Of a DNA stretch of 5,382 bases, positions 64 to 5,227 are shown one piece after another. Position 1 is the first letter of the stretch; the number at the start of each line of letters is the position of its first letter. The notes under the pieces are model-generated. The model saw only the letters and a program-made list of their open reading frames with translations, was not told the DNA's origin and ran no database searches. The DNA is from Candidatus Heimdallarchaeota archaeon (GTDB taxonomy: Archaea > Asgardarchaeota > Heimdallarchaeia > Heimdallarchaeales > Kariarchaeaceae): NCBI GenBank assembly GCA_021399405.1, contig JAAFKL010000294.1:1-5382 (forward strand), read 5' to 3'. Made by a program: the position numbers and the translations under genes.

Positions 64-266
64 GACAAGATTTCTTACCCTACCTATAAACCACCCCGGG
101 TTAATAATTGATTAGCCTAATAAAATGCAAAATTCTGGGAAAGACATATTATATTCATGATGTGTAGATCGATCTGATCAATTGAAACAGTTACTTGATG
201 AACTAGCTGGCATATTTCTAATTTCATAATAGCACATTTTTAAAATATAAATATAAATTGCAATAA
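64..266 (+). promoter_or_regulatory. Control region upstream of the two-gene operon
   Basis: This stretch of about 200 bases has no convincing reading frame. It contains a perfect 10-bp palindrome, AGATCGATCT at 166-175, followed at once by TGATCA (175-180), so three GATC sites fall within 13 bases. An imperfect palindrome with a 4-base loop follows (188-196 pairing with 201-209, eight of nine pairs including one G-U). Both lie 30-75 bases upstream of the TATA box, where an archaeal activator or repressor could bind. No regulator can be named. It also forms the junction just after the stop codon of the gene end at 1-63, where similarity to the second copy stops abruptly. Confidence 0.35.
237..256 (+). 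promoter_or_regulatory. TATA box for a leaderless transcript of the operon
   Basis: The run TTTTTAAAATATAAATATAA lies with its 5' part about 26 bases before the ATG at 267, the spacing expected of an archaeal TATA box if transcription starts at or next to the start codon. No Shine-Dalgarno motif lies between it and the ATG, which supports leaderless initiation and helps choose the ATG at 267. Confidence 0.6.
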
Positions 267-716
267 ATGAGGAGAAGAGAGCCACCTCAGGAAGAATTCA
301 TAGCTTTTTTCCCCAAAGATTCTATTAATGATAAAATATTTATTGGATATTTGATGAGTGACCTTTCGAATAAATACCCATCAGGTTTTCATAGTGTGAG
401 TTTGAAAGACGTTGCTGAGGTATTGGATGAGGGTGAATACCTGAAGTACATGAAATCTGCAACGGAAGCGGAGACTACTAAATATAGTACTCTTTTAGAA
501 TTGGAGAGAGAGGGATATGATTTACCTATAATGGATTACATGATGGAGGATCGTGAATTTTACAGACTTAGGATATCAGAGGGTTATATCTGTATCAAAG
601 TGAATTTTATTAGAAAAGGAAGTGATATAGTAGGAATAGGTGTCGGAGATCGGAAACGTGAGGTTATTTATCCCGAACCAAACCACATAGTCAAGTATTT
701 AGAGGTGTTGGATTGA
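267..716 (+). CDS. Uncharacterised 149-residue protein, first gene of the LRR-SWIM operon
   Basis: I do not recognise this protein. It appears soluble: there is no signal peptide or membrane segment. The N-terminus is short and basic (MRRREPPQ), the middle (about residues 48-95) is charged, Glu-rich and probably helical, and the C-terminal third (about 96-149) alternates hydrophobic and polar residues as beta strands do (YICIKVNF, DIVGIGVG). The ATG at 267 is chosen because a TATA box sits at leaderless spacing and there is no ribosome binding site. Its stop codon overlaps the TTG start of the next gene (TTGA at 713-716), so the two are probably co-transcribed and translationally coupled, often a sign that products act together. 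A small accessory or regulatory partner of the LRR-SWIM protein is an inference from position only. No catalytic motif is evident. Confidence 0.8.
   Translation: MRRREPPQEEFIAFFPKDSINDKIFIGYLMSDLSNKYPSGFHSVSLKDVAEVLDEGEYLKYMKSATEAETTKYSTLLELEREGYDLPIMDYMMEDREFYRLRISEGYICIKVNFIRKGSDIVGIGVGDRKREVIYPEPNHIVKYLEVLD
702..707 (+). promoter_or_regulatory. Ribosome binding site deciding the TTG start at 713
   Basis: GAGGTG lies inside the end of the upstream gene, five bases before the TTG at 713. It is the only Shine-Dalgarno-like motif near the start of the large frame, and it supports a TTG start overlapping the preceding stop codon over a later ATG. Confidence 0.6.
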
Positions 717-2614
717 TTAGGAAAATAAAATTGAATGAAATACCCCATGATACTGATGATGAGAGGATAATGGCATTACGATTAGAGTTGAAATTATTGC
801 GGGTGAATGAAAATCAAATAATTTTCGAGTACTATGGTGATGAAATCGAGAAATTGGAAGTTGTGAGAAAGGTATCCATAATTCCGAGCAGCATATATCA
901 ATTTACCACTCTTAGAGAACTCAAAATATCATGTAAATCTATTGTCATCAATGATACCATTGAAAATCTCAAAAAATTGAACTTTCTGTCCCTTAGAACT
1001 GATAAATTTGGAGGAATTTCTGCAAATGTATCTAGATTACCCCTAACATATTTTTCATTGAAAACTGAAATTACTGAGGGTATAAAGAAATCATTAGAGG
1101 ATATTTTCAATGATGAATTGATACAATCAATTAGAAAAAACGAGATTGCCTATTCTCAGAGAATGAATGGTGTAAAAGAAAATAAATCCGCGAGATTTCC
1201 CCTTTTATATTGTGAAGGGCAGGAATTTATCAATGGGATGATAAAATCTGGACTGAATATTAGTTTGATCATAGAACCCAAAAAATCAAGTGATCCCCAA
1301 ATTAATGTAGTAAATTCAATCAAAACGAGACGTAAGATTAAATCAAATGTCTTTGTTACTGAAAATTATAGGATTACTGAACTGTACATTAAAGATAAAG
1401 GAGTTCCAGAAGGGATAGAAGGTCTTCAACATCTAAAAATACTGGATTTATCCAATCAGGGTTTAAAAGAAATACCTGACTTCATTTGCAAATTGAACTC
1501 ACTTCAAACACTTGTACTCACTACAAACCATTTGAAATGTTTTCATAATATTAGTAAATTAAAAATCAATACATTTGATATATCAGATAATCAACTGACA
1601 GATATTCCAGAGGAGATCTCTAAACTGAAATATCTGAAGAAACTAGTGTTGAGGAGAAATAAAATTATAAGTTTTGAGAGTTGTAATGTCCTAAATGGAT
1701 TGAGTTCTCTATCATTTCTTTCTCTAGCAGAAAATGGCTTGAAGGTTCTGAACAATCCACTCCAAAACAACTCTATAAAGTCCCTAGATCTGAGTGACAA
1801 TATTATCAAGAGGTTGCCAAGTAGGTACTTGCATACGAAAAATGGTTTGGAATTTCTTTTTTTAGATGGTAATCCTATTGAGATTATTGAGTATGACAAA
1901 AATAAGCCAAGCTCATTAAAGAGAATAGATGTGGATTCTAGCCTTCTTAAAGGAAAGATGAAAGATATATTTGTTGAGCTTGATCGTTCTGTGAGAGTGG
2001 TGGTAATTGATAAAATTACCAGTAAAAAAAACATGTCACTGCAATCTTTCACTTCTGAACCTGTAAAGAATCTGGTAAGTAGAACAAATGCATATGTACC
2101 ACGATGGGTCTCTAAAAAGGAATTGCATCGAGTAATGAAAGAGCGTCGTCTACCCACCTCACCCTCTTCAAGAAATTACTACAGAATTCGTGATAGGGTG
2201 TTGGATGAACTTCTTGAACCGAAATATCCCAGAAAACAATACCGGATTACCAAAAAAACTGATAAACAGCAAAATATAGGAATGAAAAACACATGGCAGG
2301 TAAAAGGTAGTAAGGATAATATCTATACTGTCACATTGACGGGAGAAAAATGGCTATGTACCTGTCCTAGTTTCAAATTCAGAAAACAGAATTGTAAACA
2401 CATCAAGAGAAAAATCAATGAGGTTGAGGAATCTAAAATTACTTTGCGTAGCGAATATCAGGTGGAAAAACAGGAAATATCAACAAAAGTTGAAAATCAC
2501 TCAAAATCACTCAAAGTTGATAAAGAAGGAGATTCAACTCCTGTGGATGATAATAACACACATAAAATTGCTCGAAAGAGAATTAAAAGAACTACTCTTG
2601 ATGATTTCTTCTAA
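713..2614 (+). CDS. Leucine-rich repeat protein with SWIM zinc finger and C-terminal PIP-like peptide
   Basis: A 633-residue protein, probably cytoplasmic, with no signal peptide or membrane segment. Domains in order: a divergent LRR-like stretch (about 56-120); a mixed spacer (130-218); a clear LRR array (about 220-410) with the LxxLxLxxNxL pattern in about seven units, for example LKILDLSNQGLKEIP at 241-255 and SIKSLDLSDN at 354-363; a basic helical linker (about 440-515); a SWIM zinc finger of CxCx(n)CxH form with ligands C549, C551, C561 and H563; a charged low-complexity tail (570-620); and the last residues RTTLDDFF (626-633) after a basic RKRIK run. The tail fits the PCNA-interacting motif Qxx(h)xx(a)(a) except that Arg replaces Gln. 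LRRs are protein-binding scaffolds, and SWIM fingers are predicted to bind DNA or protein. The reading that it is a DNA- or clamp-associated recognition protein is inferred. No nuclease, NTPase or TIR domain is visible. TTG start, coupled to the gene before. Confidence 0.88.
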   Translation: MIRKIKLNEIPHDTDDERIMALRLELKLLRVNENQIIFEYYGDEIEKLEVVRKVSIIPSSIYQFTTLRELKISCKSIVINDTIENLKKLNFLSLRTDKFGGISANVSRLPLTYFSLKTEITEGIKKSLEDIFNDELIQSIRKNEIAYSQRMNGVKENKSARFPLLYCEGQEFINGMIKSGLNISLIIEPKKSSDPQINVVNSIKTRRKIKSNVFVTENYRITELYIKDKGVPEGIEGLQHLKILDLSNQGLKEIPDFICKLNSLQTLVLTTNHLKCFHNISKLKINTFDISDNQLTDIPEEISKLKYLKKLVLRRNKIISFESCNVLNGLSSLSFLSLAENGLKVLNNPLQNNSIKSLDLSDNIIKRLPSRYLHTKNGLEFLFLDGNPIEIIEYDKNKPSSLKRIDVDSSLLKGKMKDIFVELDRSVRVVVIDKITSKKNMSLQSFTSEPVKNLVSRTNAYVPRWVSKKELHRVMKERRLPTSPSSRNYYRIRDRVLDELLEPKYPRKQYRITKKTDKQQNIGMKNTWQVKGSKDNIYTVTLTGEKWLCTCPSFKFRKQNCKHIKRKINEVEESKITLRSEYQVEKQEISTKVENHSKSLKVDKEGDSTPVDDNNTHKIARKRIKRTTLDDFF

Positions 2615-2885: not shown

Positions 2886-3104
2886 GTATCTAAGCAAGAT
2901 AGAAAACATATAGCAATGGTTGTAGACGAGTTTGGATTTAAAGGATTGATTACTGTTGAGGATGTTCTGGAAACACTTCTTGGAATTGAAATCATCGATG
3001 AGGACGATGAGATCGAGGATATGTAGGTATTAGCTCGTCAAGTCTGGGAAAATAGAATGAAGAGACTTGGCCTTGATCTGAATGAAAGCAAAGAAGAACA
3101 GTGA
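2886..3104 (+). pseudogene. Broken C-terminal CBS domain of a CorC/TlyC-type (DUF21-CBS) protein
   Basis: The frame from 2886 encodes RKHIAMVVDEFGFKGLITVE followed by DVLETLLG and an acidic DEDDEIEDM. This is the hallmark second CBS domain of the CNNM/CorC/TlyC family (H-x-A-x-V-V-D-E-x-G...G-x-(V/I)-T-x-E-D-V-x-E-x-(L/I)-x-G). These membrane proteins, about 350-450 residues long, are linked to Mg2+/Co2+ efflux; the DUF21 membrane part, most of the first CBS domain and any start codon are missing. A TGA at 2883-2885 closes the frame upstream. An in-frame TAG at 3024-3026 falls after IEDM, and the frame then continues with LARQVWENRMKRLGL, the usual family tail, to TGA at 3102-3104. The TAG is one base from CAG (Gln). 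With the truncation, this is best read as a relic. I see nothing in 3105-3285 after it. Confidence 0.75.
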
Positions 3105-3531: not shown

Positions 3532-3603
3532 CTAAAAGAGAGAATCACCAATGGAGTTATTCCAAAGGCCCTTAACCACCTGGAAAAATTCGTATTGAAC
3601 TAA
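3499..3603 (+). pseudogene. Truncated second copy of the gene end found at 1-63
   Basis: The frame ends at TAA (3601-3603) with the same 20 residues as the gene end at the window start. It adds upstream residues NGDVTNQVQLKE before a TGA at 3496-3498 cuts it off. No start codon or body of the gene precedes it, so this is a 3' stub and not a whole gene. Similarity to the first copy stops exactly at the stop codon; the flanking sequence after it is unrelated. It may be the displaced original 3' end left by an integration or duplication. Its natural convergent neighbour is the hydrolase gene, with a long inverted repeat between the two stop codons. Confidence 0.6.
3541..3603 (+). repeat. 63-bp direct repeat of positions 1-63
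   Basis: This sequence matches 1-63 at 57 of 63 positions, with an uninterrupted identical core of 38 bases (4-41 and 3544-3581). The two copies are in the same orientation and 3540 bases apart, enclosing the LRR-SWIM operon and the graveyard. The arrangement looks like attachment-site duplication at the 3' end of a protein gene, or the edge of a larger segmental duplication whose left part lies before the window. Confidence 0.8.
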
Positions 3604-3697: not shown

Positions 3698-4609
3698 TTA
3701 AGTATCTATCTTTGAAAGAAATTCATTTATTACACGAAACACAGTTTCTCTATCCATAATTTGCAATCCATGTCCTATGCCCTCCAATTTCACATGAGTT
3801 GCATTAGGCATAAGTGACATCATTTTTTCCACATCATCATCTGTAACCAGACCTCCAAGACTGGTATCAGCCTGAATTATCAGTGTTGGGCATTTAATTC
3901 TGGGTAAGAAATCATCAAGTATTATTTCATATCCTTCAGTTAATTTTTCCAGGTAATTGGAACTAAACCAACCATCAACTACATTTTGATCTACTCGATA
4001 CCAACACTCAGCCATTGTGAGAAAAATCTTTTCATCTTCCATATCACCTCCCAGTAGTGCCTTCATAGAGATTGGATCATCAAGAGTTGGCCAATCTACC
4101 ATCATATTCTCACTTTCTTTGATATATTCCTCAAAAGAATTAACCTTGGCACGTAATTCGCCAGATAATTTCAAAAAGAGTTTCATTTGCTCATTTCTGA
4201 TCGAATTCCATCTCTCTTGTGAAGTATAGGCGTGAAAAGGTGAATCTCCCAGTATAAGTGCTCTGACACTTTCAGGTTGTTCAGCTGCAAATATTGATCC
4301 TATGACACCTCCCATTGACCATCCAAATAGCACCAAGGGCTCATCAATTCTTTCACCAACAAATGATACAGTGTCCTTAAGATGATCCTCGAATTTATCC
4401 CAGGTTCCAGTCCACTCTGATTTTCCCCTTCCTCTGAGATCATAGGCAAATACACTCCAGCTTTCTAATAAGTCGGGAAGTATGGGATTGATTGTTTGCC
4501 AGATATTTCCTGCTCCATGAAGATAGAGAAAAGGTGGATTTGCATTCTTATTTTCATAATAATTGAGGATAACTTCACCTGTATTGTGTTTTTTATCCAT
4601 GTATTCCAT
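3698..4609 (-). CDS. Alpha/beta hydrolase fold protein
   Basis: A 303-residue cytoplasmic protein of normal length for the family. It has the HG motif of the oxyanion-hole region (LYLHGAGN, about 28-35), the DLRGRGKS turn after strand 4 (57-64), and the nucleophile elbow GWSMGG (96-101) with Ser98. The likely catalytic acid is Asp248 in LIIQAD and the catalytic His is His280 in GIGHG, so the Ser-Asp-His triad is complete. A helical cap domain fills about 125-230. Proteins of this type are esterases, lactonases, C-C hydrolases or haloperoxidase-like enzymes; the substrate cannot be read from sequence. ATG 4609 is chosen because a TATA-like box stands at leaderless spacing; the ATG four codons in (MDKK) is a less likely start. 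It is divergent from the DUF423 gene and convergent with the stub at 3499-3603. Confidence 0.9.
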   Translation of the reverse strand: MEYMDKKHNTGEVILNYYENKNANPPFLYLHGAGNIWQTINPILPDLLESWSVFAYDLRGRGKSEWTGTWDKFEDHLKDTVSFVGERIDEPLVLFGWSMGGVIGSIFAAEQPESVRALILGDSPFHAYTSQERWNSIRNEQMKLFLKLSGELRAKVNSFEEYIKESENMMVDWPTLDDPISMKALLGGDMEDEKIFLTMAECWYRVDQNVVDGWFSSNYLEKLTEGYEIILDDFLPRIKCPTLIIQADTSLGGLVTDDDVEKMMSLMPNATHVKLEGIGHGLQIMDRETVFRVINEFLSKIDT

Positions 4610-4837: not shown

Positions 4838-5227
4838 ATGAAAGAATACAAAATCAAAGATTGGATCTTCATAGCTGCGATTCTAGGTGGAATATCAGTT
4901 GCACTTGGTGCATTTGGTTCACATCTGCTTGAGGGTATACTGGACACCAAGGATTATGATATCTTCAGAACTGGTGTCAGATATCAGATGTGGCATACCT
5001 TGGCCATATTCATAACTGCTGTACTACAAAAGAATTTCAATCTGAAAAGATTTAATCAGATTCAGTGGTCTTTCCTGCTGGGCATCATATTCTTCAGCGG
5101 TAGTCTGTACATACTTGTTCTTACACAACTAAGATGGTTTGGTGCCATCACTCCCATCGGTGGGGTTGCGTTTGTATTGGGTTGGGGTTTACTGGCAATG
5201 TCTGCAAAGAAATTAGATACAGAGTAA
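4838..5227 (+). CDS. DUF423 family small integral membrane protein
   Basis: A 129-residue protein with four predicted membrane helices at about 9-27, 48-65, 78-96 and 100-122. The family signature is clear: ALGAFGSHLL (22-31), a loop with F43, G46, Y49 and MWH (51-53) entering helix 2, FFSGSLY (85-91), and FGAITPIGG (101-109) entering helix 4. Length is typical of the family (about 120-130). DUF423 proteins, such as YgdD of Escherichia coli, are widespread in bacteria and present in some archaea; their function is not established. The gene stands alone behind its own TATA box and is divergent from the hydrolase gene. The ATG at 4838 gives a short charged N-terminus (MKEYKIKDW) before helix 1, as is usual in the family. 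Confidence 0.93.
   Translation: MKEYKIKDWIFIAAILGGISVALGAFGSHLLEGILDTKDYDIFRTGVRYQMWHTLAIFITAVLQKNFNLKRFNQIQWSFLLGIIFFSGSLYILVLTQLRWFGAITPIGGVAFVLGWGLLAMSAKKLDTE

Follow-up and report, generated by a model that had tools for sequence, protein, structure and literature searches.

The window analysed here, a stretch of 5,382 nucleotides, carries a gene for a protein in which an LRR array is followed by a SWIM zinc finger and, at its very end, by a peptide that resembles a PIP. Whether this peptide ties an LRR protein to an archaeal clamp is the question that the locus raises. According to the available part of PMC4929162, the PCNA interactome of archaea has been mapped only poorly outside the core enzymes. 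If the tail binds, the protein would be a PCNA client that lacks a visible enzyme domain, and LRR proteins, mostly known as receptors and scaffolds, would be tied to the archaeal clamp.

Domain parts of the LRR-SWIM protein

The original prediction had described an LRR array, four SWIM ligands and RTTLDDFF as the final eight residues of one protein. All of these are borne out, and Pfam together with the sequence supports the order LRR, SWIM, PIP-like C-terminal peptide (Table 1). The same protein is entered in the protein database with 627 residues, its start lying six residues later than the TTG used here. Pfam matches over the cut-offs (LRR_8, E 1e-15; LRR_14, 4.7e-13; LRR_4, 8.9e-12) make the main LRR block a confident assignment, and an AlphaFold model built on an alignment of eight sequences, with pLDDT taken in ten-residue blocks, gives this arc block values of 59-92. 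With the model as query, the best 50 Foldseek matches listed are all LRR proteins; both the repeats and the solenoid fold of an LRR protein are thus found. NCBIfam also returned names of type III LRR effectors (XopAE and others), which we set aside as generic LRR similarity, XopAE scoring 50.3 bits against a cut-off of 600. A role like that of LRR1 of CUL2 was likewise rejected, the similarity being that of LRRs in general. Toward the N-terminus, a degenerate LRR-like block has sequence matches at residues 51 and 89 and strands modelled at moderate confidence (block pLDDT 57-79), and some 100 residues without a clear fold lie between it and the main arc. The model falls below a pLDDT of 50 at residues 120-219 and 411-633, and below 40 in the SWIM part and tail.

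The SWIM finger combines a profile match (PF04434, E 9.3e-6, 25.5 bits against a cut-off of 19.6) with the ligands C549, C551, C561 and H563, spaced CxCx9CxH and located exactly where they had been placed. The finger itself is common, since the profile matched in 10 of 14 control genomes (three archaeal).

Table 1. Features of the window, with positions counted from its first nucleotide
Feature	Positions	Strand	Extent or remark	Basis
TATA-like box TTAAAAT	240..246	+	begins 27 bases 5' of the start of the 149-aa ORF	
149-aa orphan ORF	267..716	+	four-base overlap with LRR-SWIM gene	
Shine-Dalgarno-like GAGGTG	702..707	+	five bases 5' of the TTG start of the LRR-SWIM gene	
LRR-SWIM-PIP-like protein gene	713..2614	+	633 aa, TTG start at 713	ORF list, Pfam
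Degenerate N-terminal LRR-like block	851..1072	+	residues ~47-120	model strands, LRR-like matches
Main LRR arc	1400..1942	+	residues ~230-410	Pfam, pLDDT, Foldseek
SWIM zinc finger	2324..2404	+	residues 538-564	Pfam PF04434, ligands
Charged linker	2411..2587	+	residues 567-625, the last five being basic RKRIK (621-625)	sequence; pLDDT <40
PIP-like tail RTTLDDFF	2588..2611	+	residues 626-633, then stop	sequence
CNNM/CorC-type gene remnant	2886-3104	+	43 aa: CorC E 1.8e-7, CBS E 0.0015	
Alpha/beta hydrolase gene	3698-4609	-		Pfam
DUF423 membrane protein gene	4838-5227	+		Pfam, E 4.2e-29

The C-terminal peptide and known PIPs

The C-terminus of the protein reads RKRIKRTTLDDFF. Its last eight residues are flush with the stop codon and carry the anchors of a PIP, with an aliphatic residue at position 4 (L629) and aromatic residues at positions 7 and 8 (F632, F633), whereas the canonical Gln of position 1 is replaced by R626. 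A basic stretch, RKRIK, directly adjoins the tail, on its N-side only. Among 200,000 random tails with the residues of this protein, 0.1055% ended in [LIM]xx[FYW][FYW], in agreement with the product of the residue frequencies (0.102%), this pattern having been picked after the tail had been seen. Taken as a pattern, TLDDFF is still rarer than the strict spacing, but it too was chosen after the fact. The strict spacing recurs once elsewhere in the protein, at residues 34-41, and of the window's four genes that were read, the LRR-SWIM gene alone has a PIP-like end. A looser PIP pattern also matched four of five alpha/beta hydrolases compared (the window's own is not among the matches), and relaxed forms of the motif therefore carry no weight.

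The original prediction had named the Arg in place of Gln as its weak point. Gln is indeed absent, yet the objection proves smaller than feared: in the available portion of PMC6881253, 34% of curated PCNA-binding motifs have no Gln, and position 1 is described as the most promiscuous of the motif, admitting charged residues. In Sulfolobus Dpo4, as given in the accessible text of PMC3504372, the PIP likewise does without Gln, and its backbone there is very similar. Arg at position 1 is nevertheless not neutral, since exchanging the Gln of p21 for Ala cost 50-fold in affinity (PMC6881253, in part). That survey also reports a 60-fold gain when the FEN1 motif was given the basic flanks of p21, and in the archaeal species that it covers PIPs sit at the very C-terminus.

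Compared with known motifs, RTTLDDFF shares five of eight residues with the archaeal consensus PIP peptide QSTLDSFF (T3, L4, D5, F7 and F8) and five of eight, at positions 4-8, with QGRLDDFF of human FEN1 (PMC6881253, in part), a protein whose body is unrelated to the LRR-SWIM protein; from both motifs the tail differs in its Arg at position 1. A figure legend of PMC4929162 gives KTTQSTLDSFFK as the consensus peptide whose structure was solved on PCNA of A. fulgidus.

Relatives and comparable systems

Residues 420-633, used as a query against the protein database, drew 720 candidates, of which the window's own protein was the sole match. The whole protein, at E up to 1e-10 and with scoring confined to the 7,995 candidates that shared most words, retrieved itself and 19 others. 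Both searches covered lengths between 0.55 and 1.75 times that of the query, a range outside which short stand-alone SWIM proteins fall. The 19 relatives have LRR domains and align over 14-54% of the query, with similarity restricted to the LRR part; they are not orthologues, and in none of them (0/19) is there a SWIM domain listed by Pfam, a CxC...CxH pattern or an end resembling a PIP. Neither the genome contigs nor the viral contigs yielded a relative of the protein, and a scan of plasmids found no homologue. At E up to 5, the part from SWIM finger to tail matched six phage records (best E 7e-4) and seven plasmid records (best E 0.4), all partially. Against PDB sequences this part gave three matches, all at chance level, and the 30-residue tail gave none.

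Known proteins resemble the LRR-SWIM protein in one part or another. NreA and NucS are described in the available part of PMC4929162 as archaeal non-core PCNA-binding proteins with a C-terminal PIP; NreA needs this PIP to act in repair in Haloferax volcanii, and many Nre proteins also carry a Cys4 metal-binding domain. What is shared with them is a C-terminal PIP-like peptide on a protein that does not belong to the core replication set; in contrast to them, the LRR-SWIM protein has neither an Nre nor a nuclease domain, but an LRR arc, a SWIM finger and Arg for Gln. SWIM proteins of the SWS1/Shu2 type, which partner RAD51 paralogues (PMC6316741, in part), have the family pattern CxC...CxHxxA. 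The zinc-ligand pattern CxC...CxH is common to both, whereas the Ala of the family is replaced here by Arg566, and the LRR arc and tail are additional. With ordinary LRR proteins (SHOC2, Leptospira LIC proteins, LRRC8, LRR1 of CUL2) the protein has the arc in common, but not the finger or the PIP-like end, neither of which occurs in the 19 LRR relatives. No archaeal LRR-SWIM or SWIM-PIP protein was found by title in the literature searched, which consisted mostly of sources other than subscription journals. The combination of LRR, SWIM and PIP-like tail was not met in the databases and literature searched, and is represented by one protein on one contig.

Host and alternative readings

A TTAAAWW box lies at -27 of the 149-aa ORF, at -28 of the hydrolase gene and at -26 of the DUF423 gene, that is, upstream of 3/3 genes with their own upstream region, and in all three any Shine-Dalgarno match is three bases long at most. 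GAGGTG, by contrast, precedes the LRR-SWIM gene, whose first bases overlap the gene before it. TATA-led leaderless first genes and Shine-Dalgarno-led internal genes are an archaeal habit. When the three upstream regions were shuffled 20,000 times, with only base composition preserved and a box pattern chosen after looking, a box fell at -24 to -30 in 2.7%, 4.1% and 2.9% of cases for the individual genes, and no shuffle gave one in all three together. TAnnTTTG, a promoter element of Bacteroidetes, occurs in none of the three upstream regions; these A+T-rich stretches do contain sigma-70-like -10 hexamers that carry one mismatch. The promoter and start contexts are suggestive of an archaeal host, in keeping with the archaeal origin that had been assumed for the protein.

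We give an even chance to the reading, by analogy with NucS and NreA as non-core archaeal proteins with C-terminal PIPs, that the LRR-SWIM protein is an archaeal PCNA-recruited adaptor. RTTLDDFF, carried on a charged flexible linker with the basic stretch beside it, would dock on the host's PCNA at its hydrophobic pocket. DNA or a repair protein would be bound by the SWIM finger, and the LRR arc would hold a partner protein, which would thereby be delivered to DNA that carries the clamp, during repair or replication. That RTTLDDFF binds PCNA is a fair guess and a reasonable prediction, while the roles proposed for finger and arc are those suggested by their domain classes. This adaptor reading draws support from strict spacing flush with the stop (about 0.1% by chance), from the agreement with two known PIPs at five of eight residues, from the terminal position and the N-side basic flank, and further from a SWIM finger over its cut-off beside the tail and archaeal-style promoters at 3/3 genes. 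Counting against it are Arg at position 1, the lack of any homologue found for the SWIM part or tail, and the surroundings, in that the ORFs and Pfam matches reveal no replication or repair gene elsewhere in the window. More tentatively, the protein may be a clamp-guided LRR receptor that would ride PCNA by its C-terminal PIP, read or hold a partner on the LRR arc and touch DNA or a recombinase with its SWIM finger; if so, it would represent a kind of clamp adaptor absent from the literature searched.

The tail could instead be fortuitous or serve something else, in which case the protein would be a scaffold of LRRs whose SWIM finger binds nucleic acid or protein, unconnected with the clamp. 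We regard this as possible, though somewhat short of probable: the case concerns a single sequence, scanning many proteins can bring up a one-in-1000 tail, the search with the SWIM half and tail gave no relative, and the SWIM pattern and PIP-like end are missing from all 19 LRR relatives, although these are not orthologues. Yet every hydrophobic anchor fits, the end position is exact and the flank is basic. A bacterial host would void the clamp idea altogether, as the tail could then not be a PIP for PCNA. This is very unlikely, since the TTAAAWW boxes at -26 to -28, the want of a Shine-Dalgarno match in 3/3 genes and the absence of TAnnTTTG all speak against it. Its grounds are that none of the searches brought up a taxon-assigned close relative from archaea, and the plasmid-record matches, which are mainly bacterial for the DUF423 protein (33 records; 37-47% identical among the 20 of them listed) and mostly bacterial, with a few haloarchaeal, for the hydrolase (107 records), together with the protein search made with the hydrolase at E up to 1e-20, in which relatives stood at 63%, 50% and 35% and the only taxon-assigned match was a Terriglobales protein at 31%; all taxon-assigned matches, however, are remote.

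LRR arcs act as sensors in immune proteins, and the protein would be a defence sensor if its arc recognised an invader protein while being kept at replicating DNA by the clamp tail or the SWIM finger. Some encouragement for this comes from the upstream 149-aa ORF, which is probably co-transcribed with the LRR-SWIM gene as a possible operon partner. Residues 50-147 of its product match phrog_10997, of unknown function, weakly (E 3.6e-4), and PADLOC gives a weak SspC match (E 0.0036, 13.4 bits). The LRR-SWIM protein, on the other hand, has no effector domain and belongs to no PADLOC family, and no defence gene lies nearby, which makes the defence reading a distant one. The 149-aa product itself has no Pfam or NCBIfam family, reached a Lactococcus phage protein at E 2 only, found no relative among viral contigs and was modelled poorly (mean pLDDT 45.8).

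Apart from the adaptor reading, which we continue to favour, several minor features of the window deserve mention. No tRNA or Rfam match was found in it. The nearest relatives of the hydrolase (63% and 50%) are metagenome proteins from short contigs, and no relative was found among genome contigs. The listed plasmid-record matches of the DUF423 protein are bacterial, on a contig that carries archaeal-style promoters. The CorC-like remnant has an in-frame stop within its reading frame, and the surrounding gene is missing. Finally, a direct repeat of 61 bases, 92% identical, occupies positions 1-61 and 3541-3601 of the forward strand, the contig start falling inside one copy. Because both copies encode the same peptide end and stop, and their five differences are all synonymous, the repeat looks to be the 3' end of a coding gene that was duplicated.
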